Below are positions 2,923 through 49,407 of a stretch of DNA of 64,000 nucleotides, one piece after another. Every line of letters begins with the position of its first letter. The stretch's first letter is position 1. A program made the position numbers and the translations under genes. The stretch is from a virus. The DNA lies in the IMG/VR virus record IMGVR_UViG_3300024239_000011, positions 144,303-208,302 of that record; one strand, 5' to 3'. A model generated the notes under the pieces. The model did no database searches, was not told the origin of the DNA, and worked only from the letters and a program-made list of their open reading frames with translations.

Positions 2923-2953
2923 AAAAAGGCGCCCCATTTGGGGCGCCTTTAGT
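2923..2953. terminator. bidirectional terminator
   Basis: AAAGGCGCCCC/GGGGCGCCTTT stem with ATTT loop, between the plus-strand gene and the minus-strand tRNA-Pro. Confidence 0.85.
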
Positions 2954-2956
2954 TTT

Positions 2957-3033
<77 letters not shown>

Positions 3034-3034
3034 T

Positions 3035-3781
3035 TTATGAATATTGGTATACGCGAATTTTCTTAGTGAGGTCAAGATTATTTATCATTTCATCGGCTAA
3101 TTTTGTTGAAGATAGCCTGTAGTGTGTAGCGTCCTGTTTCACAAATGGATATCCACATGCATACGAGGCGATTTCAAATGCTTTTTGAACCTCAGTATTT
3201 TTCTGCACAAAATGCACATATGTATACCAACCTCCGTTCTTGAAGGTTTTATAAACTCCCCCATCAGTTTCAATCAAACCTTTGAGGAACATTTTAAGGT
3301 ATTCGTCGGCTGAATATATCCAATCAGGGACAACAAATCCGTTTGTATTTTTGTTCCCAACTGGAAGCGCAAGAGAATTTGGCAAATCTATCCCATAAAC
3401 ATAGATTTCAACACAATTCGCATTTTTGTGTTTTCTTTGTTTCGCCGTTTTTCCTGTAATTCTAGTTAATAGCGCCGTATATTCTTCAATAAGATATGGG
3501 TGTGATTGATCACATGATATGAGCAGTTTACAGGATCGTCCAGTTCGCGTCAGACATCCATCACCAGCAAAGACACCCATGAAATACGCCAAATCATTTG
3601 ATCTTTCCATTAAAAGAATTTGTTCTCGTTGTTTCGCTTGACGTTTTATTGTTGGACTTATACTTGGCAAATGACGAATGTGCCATCGCACAGTGGAAGG
3701 TGCTATTCCCAAGTCTTCTGCTATTTTTCGGATACTAAATCCATGCTCACGTAATGTAATACATTTCTTACCGATTTCCAT
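3035..3781 (-). CDS. LAGLIDADG-type homing endonuclease with N-terminal HTH
   Basis: 248 residues. Residues 1-35 form a resolvase-like helix-turn-helix (GFSIRKIAEDLGIAPSTVRWHI). Two LAGLIDADG motifs follow: YFMGVFAGDGCL (about 66-77, catalytic Asp at the end) and FLKGLIETDGGV (about 164-175). Spacing of about 100 residues is typical of single-chain LAGLIDADG enzymes. The gene is free-standing and ends 2 bp before a tRNA-Pro, an arrangement repeated at 11697. Inference: it cuts at or near a tRNA-Pro or neighbouring sequence and spreads by homing. Confidence 0.85.
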   Translation of the reverse strand: MEIGKKCITLREHGFSIRKIAEDLGIAPSTVRWHIRHLPSISPTIKRQAKQREQILLMERSNDLAYFMGVFAGDGCLTRTGRSCKLLISCDQSHPYLIEEYTALLTRITGKTAKQRKHKNANCVEIYVYGIDLPNSLALPVGNKNTNGFVVPDWIYSADEYLKMFLKGLIETDGGVYKTFKNGGWYTYVHFVQKNTEVQKAFEIASYACGYPFVKQDATHYRLSSTKLADEMINNLDLTKKIRVYQYS

Positions 3782-3923
3782 TGTAATACCTCTAGCACAT
3801 TTTGGCAGAGGTATTTATGAAGTTGGAACGGACGACGGGCAACAAACCCGCTTTGGGTAATGAGGTCAAATAACTTTGTCGGTGAATTATTTATGAAAGC
3901 CTCGCCCTTTGACGTATCTTCAC

Positions 3924-3931
3924 CATAAATA
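3924..3931 (+). promoter_or_regulatory. T4-type late promoter box
   Basis: CATAAATA, one mismatch from the T4 late core TATAAATA, about 27 bp before the ATG at 3958. Confidence 0.55.
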
Positions 3932-3957
3932 CCCGGAATGAGATTCGCGAGGGGAAT

Positions 3958-4212
3958 ATGAACTACGACGATTTCACTAAAATGGGTACCGAGGTCGAAG
4001 CCGAAGTTGCCGCTGAATACCGTTTCGAGAATGGCACGCCGTTCAAGCCACAATTTGTGGACGATTGTTCGCCTGCCTTGCAAGGTTATTTGCGTAGTAT
4101 GGATGACCCTGAAGTATTCCGATGCGAAACAGACCGTCTTGCCGCCGGGCTGGCGGATTGGATCGATGAGTTGGTTGAGGCGGGACTGATGAAAGCTGGT
4201 TCGGTCGCCTAG
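3958..4212 (+). CDS. hypothetical acidic protein (84 aa)
   Basis: Good ribosome binding site (GAGGGG, 4 bases before the ATG) and a late-promoter-like box upstream. The protein is acidic and helical (EVEAEVAAEYRFENG near the N-terminus, LADWIDELVEAGLM near the C-terminus). No family recognised. Ends just before a strong terminator. Confidence 0.75.
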   Translation: MNYDDFTKMGTEVEAEVAAEYRFENGTPFKPQFVDDCSPALQGYLRSMDDPEVFRCETDRLAAGLADWIDELVEAGLMKAGSVA

Positions 4213-4214
4213 AG

Positions 4215-4249
4215 AAAAACCCCCGGAAGCAATCCTTCCGGGGGTTTTT
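4215..4249. terminator. bidirectional terminator
   Basis: AAAAACCCCCGGAAG/CTTCCGGGGGTTTTT stem with CAATC loop. Confidence 0.85.
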
Positions 4250-4375
4250 GCTACTCAGGGCAGGGAGCAACCGATGTCCCTTTTTGCTCGAAGTTTCAGC
4301 GCCCGTAGGGGGGGTTCCGGTCACCGGGTTGCTAACTTCGGGCGCACCATAGGGGACCACGTAGGGGCTGTCAAG

Positions 4376-4855
4376 TCAGTCACATCCGCACGATGAAGAC
4401 CCACTATCGCACGAATAGCTGCTGCCGCTGTCGTAGGATGACGACGAACCGCAAGAGGACGACGAGAACGAGCTATCCCAGGACGACGTGATCGCTGACA
4501 CCGTAGAGGTGATCACGTCGTCATCGCTGGATGACCGCCGCCGAGTGTAATAATCATCACTGCTGTCGCTTGTACGCTGCGTAGTCGGGGCGGGCTTGGT
4601 CGGCGCCGAGGTGACCGGTTTCGACGGAGTATAAGGACGGTTCACTGTCGTCGCCGGGGCGACGGTTGGCGTAACCGAGACGGTCGGCGTTGGGTGGACA
4701 GATGTGATGAGCGCATCTTTGGTTTCTTGCCACGCCGCTTTCGTTGCGGCGCGTTTCCGCCGTTTGGTTATGACGTAGGCAAGCGTACCGAAACCGGCGG
4801 CACCGACCGCAGAGGACACAAAGATAATTTCAAGCATGAGAGAACACCTGATCAT
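4376..4855 (-). CDS. membrane-anchored Ser/Cys-rich protein
   Basis: 159 residues from the ATG at 4855 (GAGG seven bases upstream); an alternative ATG at 4837 removes six residues. Residues about 8-28 are a transmembrane segment (LEIIFVSSAVGAAGFGTLAYV) followed by a basic stop-transfer KRRKRAA. A Pro/Thr-rich linker (about 52-92) leads to an RRR patch and a low-complexity C-terminus of Ser, Asp and Cys repeats (SSCGSSSSYDSGSSYSC). Such tails occur in surface-exposed or metal-binding membrane proteins of unknown role. The start codon lies in a 12-bp hairpin (see 4839-4880). Confidence 0.7.
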   Translation of the reverse strand: MIRCSLMLEIIFVSSAVGAAGFGTLAYVITKRRKRAATKAAWQETKDALITSVHPTPTVSVTPTVAPATTVNRPYTPSKPVTSAPTKPAPTTQRTSDSSDDYYTRRRSSSDDDVITSTVSAITSSWDSSFSSSSCGSSSSYDSGSSYSCDSGSSSCGCD

Positions 4856-4880
4856 GACACTACCTCAACAATCAGGTGTT
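4839..4880 (-). promoter_or_regulatory. 12-bp inverted repeat enclosing a ribosome binding site
   Basis: AGAACACCTGAT and ATCAGGTGTTCT pair perfectly on the minus strand. The loop holds GAGG, and the first ATG (4855) sits at the foot of the stem, so the transcript of the membrane protein could hide its own start; alternatively the repeat is a repressor operator. Confidence 0.6.
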
Positions 4881-4893
4881 CTCTGGTATCCAG

Positions 4894-5619
4894 TCAATTT
4901 TCTGTTTGTCCGCAATAGGCTGCAATCAATTCGTCAACCAGAGCAGGCACGCCAGTAGTCGCAGTAGCATCGATCACTCGCGTGAAAACTTCATTCTCGG
5001 TCGGGATTGGATTTACCTCAATGATCTGGGCATTCCGTCTATTCATGCTTACCGCTTGCGCGAATAAACTGGCGGGCATGACTTGCCCGGATGTTCCAAT
5101 ACTGATGAAAATGTCAGTATGATCTAGAGCAGGTTCGATCAGTCCCAGATGATATGGCAGTTCCCCAAACCATACAACGTCGGGACGCATCGAACCGGTC
5201 GTGCGGCATGATGGGCAAACCATGTCTACCGAAGCATCGCCGTGATGAACGAGTTTTTCCTTGCAATTGGCGCATTTGAGTTTGAGCAGTTCTCCGTGCA
5301 TATGGGCAATGCTTTTAGAACCTGCCCGCTCGTGGAGGTCGTCAATGTTCTGGGTGATAATCACAAAGCCATTATTGCTAGGCCAAGCTTGCTCAAGCTT
5401 CGCTAAGGCGTAATGAGCCGCATTTGGTTCGACCGTTATTAGCTTGGCACGCCGTTCATTATAGAACCGATGTACCAATGCTGGATCGCGTTGAAATCCT
5501 TGTGGTGTGGCTACATCTTCAACTTTATGTTTTTCCCACAATCCCATACTGTCACGGAATGTAGGAATACCAGACTCGGCGCTAATACCAGCACCAGTCA
5601 AAATGACTATATTTGGCAT
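4894..5619 (-). CDS. sirtuin: NAD-dependent protein deacylase
   Basis: 241 residues, close to the length of bacterial CobB. NAD-binding motif GAGISAESGIPTFRD at residues 9-23, TQNIDDLHERAG at about 90-101, catalytic His in HMHGE at about 107, and a four-Cys zinc site (CANC near 117, CPSC near 136). FYNERR near residue 52 carries the Tyr-x-x-Arg pair that in E. coli CobB allows removal of acidic acyl groups such as succinyl. All catalytic residues are present. In a phage it could remove host acyl marks, alter NAD use, or counter NAD-based defence; these roles are inference. Confidence 0.92.
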   Translation of the reverse strand: MPNIVILTGAGISAESGIPTFRDSMGLWEKHKVEDVATPQGFQRDPALVHRFYNERRAKLITVEPNAAHYALAKLEQAWPSNNGFVIITQNIDDLHERAGSKSIAHMHGELLKLKCANCKEKLVHHGDASVDMVCPSCRTTGSMRPDVVWFGELPYHLGLIEPALDHTDIFISIGTSGQVMPASLFAQAVSMNRRNAQIIEVNPIPTENEVFTRVIDATATTGVPALVDELIAAYCGQTEN

Positions 5620-44050: not shown

Positions 44051-45138
44051 TGTCTAGACTGTCACTATGGCGCAAACAAAAAGGTAACGATTATAATTTT
44101 ATTGATCGTACATCCGCAGAACAATTCACCGTAGGCGGGGTAAGTGTCTATATCCACAAATATATAGGACCGTATACCGAGGAAGGTATAAACGAAGAAG
44201 AAGCGTTCTTAGCACCAAAAAATATAAATCAAGCCAAAGCCCCAGAGACATGGATACAGGATTTGCTTTTCATGGAGAACCGTGACCGCAAATACGACCC
44301 ACACATCTATGAACTTCGTGGACATTTCACGGTACAAGACAACGATTTCGATCTTTCACAATTTGGTCTAATGCTATCGAACGACAATATCTACATCACG
44401 TTCCATCTAAACACAATGATCGATCAGATCGGACGAAAATTAATGTCAGGTGATGTGGTTGAACTACCAAATATGCGCGAAGATGCTATGTTAGATGATA
44501 CCGCAGATGCCATCAACAAATTCTATGTAATTGACGATGCAAACTATGCCGCCGAAGGATATAGCCCATTATGGTATCGCCATTTATGGCGTTGTACATG
44601 TAAACCTCTTAAGGATAGCCCCGAATTTCGCGACATCCTTGGTACCGGTGAGAAGAAAGACGATCTCAAGAACCTGTTATCCACTTATGCGAAAGACATT
44701 GCATTAAGCGATTTGTTGATAGAAGCTGCTGAAGCAGAATCACCAATGCGGAATTTTGAAACTGCCCATTTCTATGTCATCCCAGGTGATGACAGTATTG
44801 GACGTATTCAGCAACCATCAATATGGTCGGGAGATGGCAAGCCGCCAAATGGCGCCGAACCAGTTGGGAGCGGTAAAATGTTTCCGTCCAATGCCCATAT
44901 GGGTGATTATTTCCTGCGTACTGATTACGAACCGCACGTTCTGTACAAAAAGGAAAAGAATGGTTGGTCACCGATTGAGGTGGACTATCGCCGCACGTGG
45001 TATGCAGCCCACCGCATACTTGAATCATTTGTTGGCTCTACCGATAGCCCTGACCAAACATGGGTTGATGACAAAGGCAAAACTGTTACAGAACGACAGA
45101 ATCTCAAAAAAGCGATCAAACCACGCAGTGACGTATGA
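44050..45138 (+). CDS. neck protein (gp14-like)
   Basis: 362 residues (T4 gp14: 256). Family blocks: TWIQDLLFMENRDRKYDPHIYELRGHFTVQDNDFDLSQFGLMLSNDNIYITFHLNTMIDQIGRKLMSGDVVELPNMRED and KFYVIDDANYAAEGYSPLWYRHLWRCTCKPLKDSPEFRDIL, both characteristic of T4-like neck proteins. The extra C-terminal part (about 250-362) has a GDYFLRTDYEPHVLYKKEKNGW unit seen also in tail proteins of such phages. Translationally coupled to the MscS-like gene; its 3' end overlaps the endonuclease gene on the other strand. Confidence 0.82.
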   Translation: MSRLSLWRKQKGNDYNFIDRTSAEQFTVGGVSVYIHKYIGPYTEEGINEEEAFLAPKNINQAKAPETWIQDLLFMENRDRKYDPHIYELRGHFTVQDNDFDLSQFGLMLSNDNIYITFHLNTMIDQIGRKLMSGDVVELPNMREDAMLDDTADAINKFYVIDDANYAAEGYSPLWYRHLWRCTCKPLKDSPEFRDILGTGEKKDDLKNLLSTYAKDIALSDLLIEAAEAESPMRNFETAHFYVIPGDDSIGRIQQPSIWSGDGKPPNGAEPVGSGKMFPSNAHMGDYFLRTDYEPHVLYKKEKNGWSPIEVDYRRTWYAAHRILESFVGSTDSPDQTWVDDKGKTVTERQNLKKAIKPRSDV

Positions 45139-46027
45139 TGTCATCTACCTCGGTATAATTCTTGTCTTTCACATACACCCAGGTGTAACCAGCAGCCTCG
45201 ACTAACTGTCGTTTAATGGCGGTTGTGCCTGGGTTATTTTTCTCCTGAAGTTTCTCTACATACCACGACTTGATCTCCACCACGTACTTTCCAAACAAGA
45301 TAAAGTCAGCGATATAGAACACCCCAGCATCGGTAAACACAGGACCGTTCCCAATGTGATCATGGGTCAAACCGTGAATATCAAAACAGCGGGTGAGGAA
45401 ATCAAGCTCATAACTGGATTGGTACAGCAGATCGGTGTCTCGAAATGGTTTTTGCTTAAAAACATTACGGTCTTTATCACTCAAAGTCTTTATCATACTT
45501 TCAATCATTTTCTGCTTCGATTCTGGATTGAAAATAGGATTAAATTTTGAAGAGTGCATACGGTCAGATCGCCGTTTCTGATCATCCGACCCCTCATACC
45601 GGGTATCGAAATAATCGCGAACCCGTTCGTTAAGATCAGTCGTCGCATGCTGTTTTTTCGCCTTTTCACTTAGGCGCTGACGTTCTGCATCAAACCGATC
45701 AGAATTGCGAAAACGCCACCACCCTTCGCGTTGTTTATCCATAAAATTAGGATCATTTGCGCGCACTTGAAGGAATTCTTGACGTTTCCGTTCTTTATCA
45801 TCTTCTGTCCACATTTTCTTATATGCAGAACGCATTTCGTGAGAGATCAATGGCGCATCGGGAAACCGAGAAAGGTATTCGTCCCGTGTCGTTCCAATCG
45901 ATTTGAAATACTTGTTAGTCAGCCGCTTATACTGATTTCCAGTAAACAAACAGGTAATTACCGCTGGTGTATGATCTGGGTAAGTAATATCCACCGTTTT
46001 TGGGTCGGGACCGCCATAAATAGACAT
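45116..46027 (-). CDS. PD-(D/E)XK-type homing endonuclease
   Basis: 303 residues from the ATG at 46027. N-terminal part has a MucR-like segment (ITCLFTGNQYKRLTNKYFKSIGTTRDEYLSRFP), the middle is basic with NUMOD-like helices (NPIFNPESKQKMIESMIKTL), and the C-terminus carries a nuclease core (YQSSYELDFLTRC, then FYIADFILFGKYVVEIKSWYVEKLQ: Glu, Asp, Glu-x-Lys). Inserted between the gp14- and gp15-like genes on the opposite strand. Confidence 0.8.
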   Translation of the reverse strand: MSIYGGPDPKTVDITYPDHTPAVITCLFTGNQYKRLTNKYFKSIGTTRDEYLSRFPDAPLISHEMRSAYKKMWTEDDKERKRQEFLQVRANDPNFMDKQREGWWRFRNSDRFDAERQRLSEKAKKQHATTDLNERVRDYFDTRYEGSDDQKRRSDRMHSSKFNPIFNPESKQKMIESMIKTLSDKDRNVFKQKPFRDTDLLYQSSYELDFLTRCFDIHGLTHDHIGNGPVFTDAGVFYIADFILFGKYVVEIKSWYVEKLQEKNNPGTTAIKRQLVEAAGYTWVYVKDKNYTEVDDIIRHCVV

Positions 46028-46055
46028 ATAACACCTCACAGATTTCCGCTGTGAG

Positions 46056-46063
46056 TATTTATC
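46056..46063 (-). promoter_or_regulatory. T4-type late promoter box
   Basis: GATAAATA on the minus strand, 28 bp before the ATG at 46027. Confidence 0.5.
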
Positions 46064-46125
46064 TTTTGCTATTACGGGCAAATATGTGGTTTGGGTCCGG
46101 TGACCAAAATATGGAGGAAAATCAA

Positions 46126-47496
46126 GTGGCTAACCTTAATTTTTGGTATTCTGGGCAAATTAGGTCGTATATGCTTCAGTTCCTTCGCGTCTTCGCGGGG
46201 TTCCAGATCAAGACGGGGAAGGGCAAAGATGGCACCGAGACATTCATCAAGGTTCCAATTCGCTACTCGGATATGAGCCGTCAAGTTGGACATATTCTGC
46301 GTGAAAACAGCGAAAACATGATGTTATCGTGCCCGTTCATGACTGCGCATTTAACTGAAATTAGCCCTTCGGCGGAACGGCGCCAAACACCGAACCATGT
46401 TAGTACGGTTCAAGTCACCGAACGCTATCATGACGATGGGTCAAACCAATATACCAACAAAATCGGTCAGGCATACTCAGTGGAACGTTTTATGCCGGTC
46501 CCCTACGATTTGGGCATGGAATTGAACATCTGGACATCGAACACTGACCAGAAACTTCAATTGCTTGAACAACTACTGGTTCTGTTCAACCCGTCCCTCG
46601 ACCTTCAGACTTCGAACAACCCTGTGGATTGGTCCGCGTTGACCCTGATCGAGTTGGAATCAATCTCATGGTCGAGCCGCAGCATTCCGCAAGGTGCGTC
46701 GGAAGAAATCGACATAGCCACTTTGTCGTTCAAAATGCCGATATGGCTGAACCCACCGGCCAAGGTCAAGCGTCAGAAGATTATCCAACAGATCGTTATG
46801 AACCTGATGGAGCATCCCACCATGCTAGACGCAGAACCGGGGGATATCCCGAACTGGACTGCGGACACCAAGCTCGATGCTCGGGTAGTGATCTCGCCAA
46901 ATCAGTATCGCATTCGTCTCGAAGGCGATATCGTCACGCTTCTCGACTTCGCCGGAAACGAAAAGGGAGACGATGGTAAGGTATTCGAATGGTCCCCGCT
47001 TCTCGATCAGTATGGACAATACGAAGAAAGTGTATCGCAGATCGTTATTCGTACTTCGACCGACTACGATAACTTCGAGAACAATATCATTGGAACGATC
47101 AAACTGATCCCGAACCAACCGAACAAGCTTCGGTGGACGGTCGATCCCGAAACGGTGCCGCGTGAAACCATCAAGAACATTCACGCGATCATCGACCCCC
47201 ATAAGAACTACCCAGGAAAAGGTTTGCCCGCTCCATCGGTCGGTCAACGGTATCTGCTGCTTGATGAAATCGGACCCTGCGAAGCGTGGGGGAATATCGC
47301 CGCAAGTGCCAACGACATTATCGAATTCACCGGGGCACGCTGGGAGGTATATTTCAACTCAAACCAAATTCGAGAAACCCATATAGTCAAAAACTCAAAC
47401 CCAAACAGTCTAAAACACTACAAATGGAATGGACAGGAATGGGATGAATTAATCAACGGAGAATATTTCCCCGGCTCATGGCGCATCTTTCTGTAA
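46126..47496 (+). CDS. tail terminator / sheath-stabilising protein (gp15-like)
   Basis: 456 residues from the GTG at 46126 (GGAGG eight bases upstream), which gives the family-like N-terminus NLNFWYSGQIRSYMLQFLRVFAGFQIKTG; longer ATG-started frames lack this fit. Blocks KVPIRYSDMSRQVGHIL, PNHVSTVQVTERYHD, YSVERFMPVPYDLGMELNIWTSNTDQKLQLLEQLLVLFNPSLDLQ and IATLSFKMPIWLNPPAKVKRQKIIQQIV match T4 gp15 (272 residues). The C-terminal 180 residues are extra. The stop codon is part of the 8-bp duplication made by the TnpB element. Confidence 0.85.
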   Translation: MANLNFWYSGQIRSYMLQFLRVFAGFQIKTGKGKDGTETFIKVPIRYSDMSRQVGHILRENSENMMLSCPFMTAHLTEISPSAERRQTPNHVSTVQVTERYHDDGSNQYTNKIGQAYSVERFMPVPYDLGMELNIWTSNTDQKLQLLEQLLVLFNPSLDLQTSNNPVDWSALTLIELESISWSSRSIPQGASEEIDIATLSFKMPIWLNPPAKVKRQKIIQQIVMNLMEHPTMLDAEPGDIPNWTADTKLDARVVISPNQYRIRLEGDIVTLLDFAGNEKGDDGKVFEWSPLLDQYGQYEESVSQIVIRTSTDYDNFENNIIGTIKLIPNQPNKLRWTVDPETVPRETIKNIHAIIDPHKNYPGKGLPAPSVGQRYLLLDEIGPCEAWGNIAASANDIIEFTGARWEVYFNSNQIRETHIVKNSNPNSLKHYKWNGQEWDELINGEYFPGSWRIFL

Positions 47497-47501
47497 CTAA
47501 A
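47494..47501 (+). repeat. target-site duplication, left copy
   Basis: TAACTAAA; the other copy is at 48901-48908. The left copy contains the TAA stop of the gp15-like gene. Confidence 0.85.
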
Positions 47502-47529
47502 CGGAACTATCGCATCAGATCAGGTAAAC
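47502..47529 (+). repeat. left terminal inverted repeat
   Basis: Begins CGGAACTATCGCATCAG; differs from the right end at two positions over 28 bases. Confidence 0.85.
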
Positions 47530-47570
47530 ACCATTTGAGCGATATTCCTGTTTCAACGACACGTAGCTGA

Positions 47571-48746
47571 TCAAGCCGTGAGCGACTTGATCCCGGCAGA
47601 GGTATCTCCACAGGCGGTGACGCCGCTAGGCGTCGGTTCGGGCATTCCTTGCCCTACCAAATATTCAAATCCCCAACGCTTGATGTTCAAAGACGCATTC
47701 GCGTCTCTGTCCATGACCAAACCGCAATTGGGGCAGTTGTAGGTTCGCTGGTTCAGCGGCATTTTCTGCCGATGATCACAGCAAGAACAGACCTGACTAC
47801 TGGGATCAAAGCGGTCAATTTGGACGAAATGCTTTCCCTGCCAGACCGCCTTGTAGGTGAACTGGCGTAGAATTTCGCCCCAACTGGCGTCGGCTATCGC
47901 CTTCGCCAAATTGTGGTTTCGCATCAATCCTTTGATGTTCAGGTTTTCGGCACAAATCACGCTGTAGGTCTTGGTTATCGAACTGGTGAATTTGTGGATC
48001 AGGTCGGCTCTCTGATTTCGCACCTTGCGGTGTTGGCGGTAGAGCCGTAATTGGCATTTCTTTCGGTTCTGGCTGTCCTTACGAGCTTTGCTCAGACGGC
48101 GTTGCAAGCGGCGTAGCCGCTTCTGTGCCTTCCGCAGATGACGGGGATTGGCGACCACCTCGCCGTCACTGGTCACGACCAGTTCCTTCAGACCGAGGTC
48201 AATACCCACTGTGCTGTCCAAATCGGGAGCGATTGGCTGGTCGGGTATGTCAATCTCACAGACCACACTAATGTACCAATTATTGCCGTCTTGGCTCACC
48301 GTGGCGGATAACGGACGCCCCTCGGGCAGCCGTCCAGCACGGAACCGCATCGATTCCATCTTTGGTAAATGGACGACATGATCACCAATGGCGAAGGATT
48401 GGTTGGTCAAATAGAACGAATCACGTAAATTCGATTTCTTCTTGAACCGAGGGAAGCCCTTGCCGCCCTTGAAACATGCCTTCAAGGCACCATCAAGGTT
48501 TCTGGCGACCCGTTGAAGTGAACAAGCTGGTGCCGCCCCGAGCCAATCCGTCTCATTCTTCATCAACGGCAACATCTTTGCCATGTCTGCGTAAAAGAAG
48601 AATTTTTTCTCAGCCGCGTAGCGGTCTTGGTTCAGGTGGAGCAGATGGTTCCACAGCCAACGGCAATTGCCACCAAATTGCTTGAGTTGTTCGGTCTGGT
48701 TGCGAGTTGGATAAAGTCGTAGTTTGAATGCTTTCTGTGTTTTCAT
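47571..48746 (-). CDS. tnpB: TnpB RNA-guided nuclease (IS200/IS605-type)
   Basis: 391 residues, typical length. N-terminal OrfB_IS605 helix-turn-helix start (KLRLYPTRNQTEQLKQFGGNCRWLWNHLL), RuvC-I Asp in VGIDLGLKELVVT (about 190), RuvC-II Glu in VICAENLNIKGLMRN (about 275), zinc finger CSCC ... CPNC (about 327-346) and RuvC-III Asp in DRDANASLNI (about 352). All catalytic residues are present, so it is likely an active guide-RNA-dependent nuclease. Its reRNA (omega RNA) would overlap the 3' end of the gene and the element end near 47500-47640; this was not verified. No tnpA nearby. Confidence 0.93.
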   Translation of the reverse strand: MKTQKAFKLRLYPTRNQTEQLKQFGGNCRWLWNHLLHLNQDRYAAEKKFFFYADMAKMLPLMKNETDWLGAAPACSLQRVARNLDGALKACFKGGKGFPRFKKKSNLRDSFYLTNQSFAIGDHVVHLPKMESMRFRAGRLPEGRPLSATVSQDGNNWYISVVCEIDIPDQPIAPDLDSTVGIDLGLKELVVTSDGEVVANPRHLRKAQKRLRRLQRRLSKARKDSQNRKKCQLRLYRQHRKVRNQRADLIHKFTSSITKTYSVICAENLNIKGLMRNHNLAKAIADASWGEILRQFTYKAVWQGKHFVQIDRFDPSSQVCSCCDHRQKMPLNQRTYNCPNCGLVMDRDANASLNIKRWGFEYLVGQGMPEPTPSGVTACGDTSAGIKSLTA

Positions 48747-48872
48747 CTGCTAAATACCAATGCGGGACAGCCCCATACATCTGCTGGGGTTTCATCGGGA
48801 GGTCGAAGGTCCGATGATTACCGCTACTTCTATTTAGCAAAAACGCTCAGTGGCAGTCGGTCAATCTATTGG

Positions 48873-48900
48873 GTCTACCTGATCTGATGCGATAGTCCCG
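48873..48900 (-). repeat. right terminal inverted repeat
   Basis: Ends CTGATGCGATAGTCCCG before the second TAACTAAA; complement of the left end. Confidence 0.85.
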
Positions 48901-48902
48901 TA

Positions 48903-48910
48903 ACTAAATA
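48903..48910 (+). promoter_or_regulatory. T4-type late promoter box
   Basis: ACTAAATA, 5 bp before the ATG at 48916. It overlaps the right target-site duplication, so the element landed in this promoter yet left a full copy next to the gene. Confidence 0.5.
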
Positions 48911-48915
48911 CGGTC

Positions 48916-49407
48916 ATGAAAATCGCATCATTATCCAAAGCTGATTGGAATCCACGCATCTACCTCGACCTAGACGGGGTGGTAGCGGACCTCCGAAACG
49001 CCATCGAAACCAGAACCGGGCAACTACTGGAAAGTGTTTCTAAACGAACCATTCTCCAAGTAATTCTTGAGACGCCGAATTTCTGGGGAAGGTTGAAGAA
49101 AACAAATGATTGTGACGTATTATGGGAATATCTCAAGTCTCACAAACCAACTATTCTAACTGGAAAAGTCTCAGCCGATCCTCTGTGTGAAACCGGTAAA
49201 CGGTTATGGGTTTTTGAAAACCTTGGAACCGAGGATGTTATTGTAACCAAAGGCGTTCTCAAACATACCTTCGGCAAACCCGGTGATATACTAATCGATG
49301 ACACGGAACGCAATATCAGATTGTGGCGTGAAATGGGTGGTATTGGAATTTTACACACCAGCGCAGCAGAAACCATTATCGAATTAAAGAAAATCGGCGT
49401 GCGTTGA
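48916..49407 (+). CDS. HAD-superfamily 5'-nucleotidase-like protein
   Basis: 163 residues. HAD motif I YLDLDGVVADL (Asp-x-Asp, about 16-26), motif II Thr in PTILTG (about 80), and motif III/IV DILIDDTERNIRLWREMGGIGILH (about 121-144). Similar to the deoxyribonucleotidase-like HAD proteins of T4-type phages, which act on dNMPs. Expression is expected late. Confidence 0.85.
   Translation: MKIASLSKADWNPRIYLDLDGVVADLRNAIETRTGQLLESVSKRTILQVILETPNFWGRLKKTNDCDVLWEYLKSHKPTILTGKVSADPLCETGKRLWVFENLGTEDVIVTKGVLKHTFGKPGDILIDDTERNIRLWREMGGIGILHTSAAETIIELKKIGVR

Follow-up and report, generated by a model that had tools for sequence, protein, structure and literature searches.

TnpB, the ancestor of Cas12, has been described in prokaryotes as a companion of HUH (Y1) and serine transposases. 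The IS200/IS605 and IS607 elements that carry it encode a Y1 or serine TnpA, have neither terminal inverted repeats (TIRs) nor target-site duplications (TSDs), and show the motif NGGAAU and a terminal hairpin at the 3' end of tnpB. A different arrangement is found in eukaryotes and their viruses, where Fanzor1 and Fanzor2*, relatives of TnpB, reside in DDE transposons with TIRs and TSDs, transposase-less copies included (PMC3627910, PMC10711439). As far as could be found, partnerships between a DDE transposase and TnpB have been described in eukaryotes only; a literature search, incomplete in coverage and not extended to ISfinder, found no prokaryotic TnpB with an IS1595, ISXO2 or other DDE transposase. 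Here, a tnpB gene is described from a 64,000-nucleotide (nt) stretch, hereafter the window, that spans positions 144303-208302 of IMGVR_UViG_3300024239_000011, a 543,035-bp jumbo-phage record assembled from a metagenome. The unit that holds this gene is probably a transposase-deleted derivative of an ISPepr2-like insertion sequence of the IS1595 family, of which tnpB is a standing partner gene.

The unit occupies positions 47502-48900 of the window (1,399 bp, minus strand in the orientation of tnpB), and tnpB is its single long gene, encoded on the minus strand. Inverted repeats of 34 nt, 88% complementary and with a perfect 21-bp core, extend over 47501-47534 and 48868-48901; within the element proper, the TIR on the tnpB 3' side is 47502-47534 and that on the tnpB 5' side, formerly the transposase side, is 48868-48900. 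A 20-mer of the repeat core has two sites in the window, both at element ends, and shuffled sequences are expected to hold none even with 3 mismatches allowed. The 8-bp sequence TAACTAAA likewise occurs exactly twice in the 64 kb, abutting the element on the left (47494-47501) and on the right (48901-48908). Terminal repeats with a 21-bp core and an 8-bp duplication on both flanks had been proposed in a first-pass annotation made from the sequence alone, and both features held up on measurement.

When the entire record was searched for the repeat core, two further ends separated by 2.5 kb came to light, with cores at G000:C1:59954 and 62454. These bound a full, autonomous copy of 2,509 bp (G000:C1:59950-62458, equivalent to 2951-5459 of the extracted locus L005), which carries a transposase gene followed by tnpB. 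The transposase has 305 amino acids (aa), with an ISXO2-like DDE domain (PF12762, 7.7e-41) and an N-terminal IS1595 zinc ribbon (PF12760, 8.1e-11), and the tnpB product of the full copy is 85% identical to that of the window. About 1,340 bp are common to the two copies at 83% nt identity, in addition to both ends, and the transposase segment is absent from the window copy; in all, the record holds two tnpB genes and one transposase gene of this kind. The first-pass annotation had regarded the unit as resembling a miniature inverted-repeat transposable element (MITE) that needs a DDE transposase in trans, an idea that depended on its ends recurring elsewhere, and the same ends indeed flank an IS1595-family DDE transposase gene and tnpB in the same record. 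Like a MITE or mobile insertion cassette, the window copy is an internal-deletion derivative that keeps both ends and a TSD and lacks a transposase, but what it carries is tnpB, a gene of the family itself, in place of unrelated coding sequence or none. The idea of MITE cargo thus stands for the transposase-less copy and fails for tnpB as a one-off stowaway, because the IS1595 set carries transposase and tnpB jointly.

Among annotated relatives, the transposase is closest to that of ISPepr2 (Pelobacter propionicus pPRO1; 48% identity), an IS1595-like element whose transposase likewise combines DDE and zinc-ribbon domains. The ends of ISPepr2 begin CGGAACTATC, the same tip as in the phage element, and are flanked by an 8-bp AAAATAAT duplication. 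The element is therefore assigned to IS1595 on the type of transposase, the sequence of the ends and the length of the duplication: the full copy has matching TIRs with the ISPepr2 tip, and the window copy has the family ends and an 8-bp duplication with no transposase, as a non-autonomous derivative of that family should. Neither IS200/IS605 nor IS607 fits the window element, which has no adjoining TnpA, is bounded by TIRs and a TSD, and is partnered by a DDE transposase. ISPepr2 differs in that it has no tnpB.

Pairs of this kind recur. In IMG/VR, neither exact nor single-sequence patterns matched anything close to the TIR 20-mer, the transposase or the tnpB; an alignment-based scan alone succeeded, returning 80 IS1595 transposases. 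Six of these (the top-scoring L101-L105, plus L107; 39-45% identity) have a same-strand tnpB within a few bases downstream, and no tnpB was detected at the remaining fetched loci of the scan. On a 191-kb contig, L107 shows TIRs (CGGACCTATTGACTTTCGTGGTCG and CGGAATTACTGACTTTCGTGGTCG) and a perfect 8-bp AGGGTACG duplication; L103 and L104 are one element in two contexts, the reading frame of tnpB is disrupted in L101, and no left repeat is recognisable in L105. Pfam confirmed both transposase and tnpB in the loci tested, the RuvC residues D, E and D are present in every intact tnpB reading frame aligned, and in the transposase tree all tnpB-linked rows together with ISPepr2 form one subgroup (support 100/99). 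A scan of GTDB genomes with the tnpB pair yielded distant TnpBs only (at most about 39% identity over long matches, mostly cyanobacterial), and no tnpB lay near any fetched IS1595 transposase locus from three taxonomic samples of 398, 292 and 369 genomes. In L102, the IS1595-tnpB pair has a homing-endonuclease-like gene (PHROG 314; 1713-2537) a short way upstream. Three tnpB-like places occur in another jumbo phage record, L070, the 485-kb uncultured phage LR745208.1.

The window tnpB (47571-48746, minus strand) encodes 391 aa with the Pfam domains HTH_OrfB_IS605, OrfB_IS605 and Cas12f1-like_TNB. The RuvC residues D183, E267 and D348 and a C4 zinc finger are intact, so that the protein has the domains, catalytic triad and zinc finger of a TnpB nuclease, and its nearest natural relative of solved structure is ISDra2 TnpB (8bf8/8exa/8h1j). 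Differences between the two phage copies fall 46/32/131 by codon position, third positions dominating; dN is 0.10, dS 0.75 and dN/dS 0.13, the last of which indicates that purifying selection has acted on tnpB from the common ancestor of both copies onward. Their divergence may predate arrival in the phage. Upstream of the window tnpB is a structured leader of about 95 nt (48747-48841, minus strand) that is closed by GCUAAAUAG/CUAUUUAGC and has a counterpart at L005 4120-4214 (plus strand). The leader is present in both copies, with closing arms GCTAAATAG/CTATTTAGC; one internal arm is altered with compensation, and the remainder is almost invariant. Other IS1595-tnpB elements have no room for such a leader because in them the transposase gene adjoins tnpB or overlaps it.

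In canonical solo tnpB elements the 3' end consists of NGGAAU, a hairpin and a short tail, and the hairpin with about 9 nt precedes the guide of the guide RNA (reRNA); at the Pseudomonas phage 5399 boundary, many insert-free phages resume homology near ..GGGAGGGGAGCAG/TCAA. The NGAAU anchor of canonical ends is also present in the IS1595 elements, and the stretch between this anchor and the TIR is predicted to pair with the TIR. In the window copy the predicted terminal hairpin of the reRNA (47502-47547, minus strand; GAAUAUCGCUCA...UGAUGCGAUAGUUC) has the outer part of the TIR as its 3' arm and AUCGCUCA as its subterminal arm. Corresponding hairpins are predicted in L107 (GCUGAU/GUCAG plus GUGGUC/GACCAC) and L103 (GUUG/CAAU plus UGCUC/GAGCA), and TIR bases close the terminal hairpin in all six right ends folded. 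An initial duplex test of the window TIR against the subterminal sequence was replaced by an anchored hairpin test, in which the non-TIR part alone was shuffled and left ends and the tnpB-less ISPepr2 served as controls. On the tnpB side, three lineages gave p values of 0.0375, 0.0005 and 0.022 (Fisher combined, 5e-5); for the ends on the transposase side of these elements the combined p was 0.34, and the ends of ISPepr2 gave 0.23 and 0.52. The best reading of these folds is that the TIR may have been absorbed into the reRNA scaffold, with the guide copied from the flanking target. The guide would then start at or just beyond the element end, and the canonical boundary in locus L260, together with the position of the hairpin, places a putative guide region at 47482-47501 (minus strand; TTTAGTTACAGAAAGATGCG), the duplication included. 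A search of Rfam gave no relevant match.

Fanzor elements offer the closest parallel, being likewise TnpB relatives in cut-and-paste elements with TIRs and TSDs (Mariner, IS4-like and the SfAV element) that have transposase-less viral copies and a TIR predicted inside the reRNA scaffold (PMC10711439, PMC3627910); the TSD is included in the Fanzor scaffold as well (PMC10711439). The predicted folds of the IS1595 elements agree with this pattern as regards the TIR, the bases of which pair inside the scaffold on the guide side only; their 8-bp duplication may or may not belong to the scaffold. The Fanzors differ in being eukaryotic and of another TnpB lineage, whereas the present elements join a compact phage TnpB to an IS1595 transposase.

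The following scheme would probably account for these features. The IS1595 transposase of the full copy would mobilise both copies through cut-and-paste, cutting with an 8-bp stagger. A tnpB transcript would extend through the TIR on the tnpB 3' side into flanking DNA, the TIR would supply the 3' arm of the terminal hairpin in the reRNA, and the guide would thus be taken from the target DNA adjoining the element. TnpB could then cut element-free copies of the site, either in the excised donor or in a phage genome infecting the same cell; with the occupied copy as repair template, the element would be restored or spread, in the manner of a homing endonuclease reprogrammed at each insertion. For IS605-type elements in plasmids, TnpB has been reported to have gene-drive activity (PMC11870625). 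As with the homing endonucleases of T4-like phages, the nuclease gene sits beside a structural gene and could convert empty alleles; unlike them, the nuclease would be RNA-guided, and its guide would change with each insertion. The chances are about even that in this IS1595 group of prokaryotic and phage DDE transposons TnpB is a working partner, for which the TIR has been rebuilt as the 3' hairpin of the guide scaffold, and that it promotes RNA-guided homing through phage populations independently of the IS605 link between target-adjacent motif (TAM) and transposition target.

Several observations weigh against this proposal. The flanks of the full copy differ, TTTTCAAA on the left and TTGGTCTA on the right (L005 2941-2950 and 5460-5470), with no duplication, so some change must have followed its insertion, likely a small adjacent deletion. 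On the left side, the flank belongs to a small open reading frame (ORF) that appears to be interrupted and the first two thirds of which match PHROG 5614; the left part had no phage match, and joining the translations of the two flanks did not lengthen the PHROG match. Each hairpin test is modest when taken singly, and the earlier duplex test was weak (p of about 0.04-0.08). The target of IS1595 elements is not a fixed sequence, in contrast to IS605, whose transposase itself targets the TAM, and inspection by eye recognised no shared TAM beside the few insertion sites. The presence of tnpB on the transposase tree requires two changes, so that tnpB may not go back to a single capture; the TnpB tree may be compatible with one origin. 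Finally, the record that holds both copies is a metagenomic assembly.

The main rival explanation is that tnpB is passive cargo, one of many IS1595 passengers, expressed but with a guide RNA irrelevant to spread of the element. IS1595 elements are known to carry passenger genes, and tnpB is absent from most of the IS1595 loci examined, ISPepr2 included. Against a mere passenger stand the repeated pairing of tnpB with the transposase gene in three or more lineages, in constant order and often overlapping, the intact catalytic residues and low dN/dS of the gene, and the restriction of TIR-containing terminal hairpins to the tnpB side, which together make passive carriage unlikely. Somewhat less probable again is nested capture without rewiring, in which a complete solo tnpB (IS1341-like) entered an IS1595 unit, its scaffold ending before the TIR and its guide being the constant TIR, in which case TnpB would aim at IS1595 ends. 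A guide starting right after the NGGAAU region would indeed be TIR sequence, repeated at the other end of the element. The tnpB stop codon, however, lies 5 nt from the element end in L107, so that no separate scaffold end fits inside the element, and within the TIR in L103; canonical ends require the hairpin and about 9 nt ahead of the guide, and the hairpins of all six folded right ends are closed by the TIR. That a transposase of another family mobilises the unit, the IS1595 transposase of the second copy being coincidental, is very improbable despite the missing duplication at that copy, since the same ends flank its transposase, ISPepr2, independently named as IS1595, has the same tip and an 8-bp duplication, and L107 repeats the entire arrangement with a perfect duplication.

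The insertion site separates two genes with intact ORFs. On the left is a gp15-like tail sheath stabiliser gene (46051-47496, plus strand; Pfam T4-gp15_tss), the TAA stop codon of which falls within the left duplication, and on the right is a 5'-3' deoxyribonucleotidase-like gene (48916-49407, plus strand). The bases that follow the right duplication, TA, restore ACTAAATA, which is intact immediately 5' of the ATG of the deoxyribonucleotidase-like gene at 48916. The first-pass annotation had read the pre-insertion site as the stop codon followed by a late promoter; the sequence arrangement stands, and the label of late promoter is plausible only. The motif CTAAATA looks like a phage promoter motif: it occurs 16 times in the window, and 7 of the 16 copies sit 5-70 nt upstream of an ATG-initiated ORF of at least 80 aa, compared with about 6.5% of positions expected. 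CTAAATA also occurs at the start of the tnpB leader. Neither an insert nor a TAACTAAA pair lies after gp15 in the related phages Atu_ph07 and Phosso or in one related IMG/VR contig, so insert-free orthologues with both copies, which would argue against a duplication made by insertion, were not seen among these three. The intergenic DNA of these insert-free relatives is too diverged for comparison at base level, and none of them provided a base-for-base empty site with a single copy. A 321-aa ORF without a confident family match (45116-46081, minus strand) overlaps the gp15 ORF at its start; immediately ahead of the gp15 gene in Atu_ph07 and Phosso lies the endolysin gene, and the 321-aa ORF may therefore be a recent insertion.

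Recurrent pairing of TnpB with a DDE transposase in phage and other viral contigs suggests that a Fanzor-like transposase swap has occurred in prokaryotes as well. These elements form a small, tractable system in which to ask how the guide boundary of an RNA-guided nuclease is fitted to a new transposase and what replaces the link between TAM and target, and one equally suited to asking whether TnpB drives its element through phage populations. They would also supply compact nucleases whose TAMs are unexplored.
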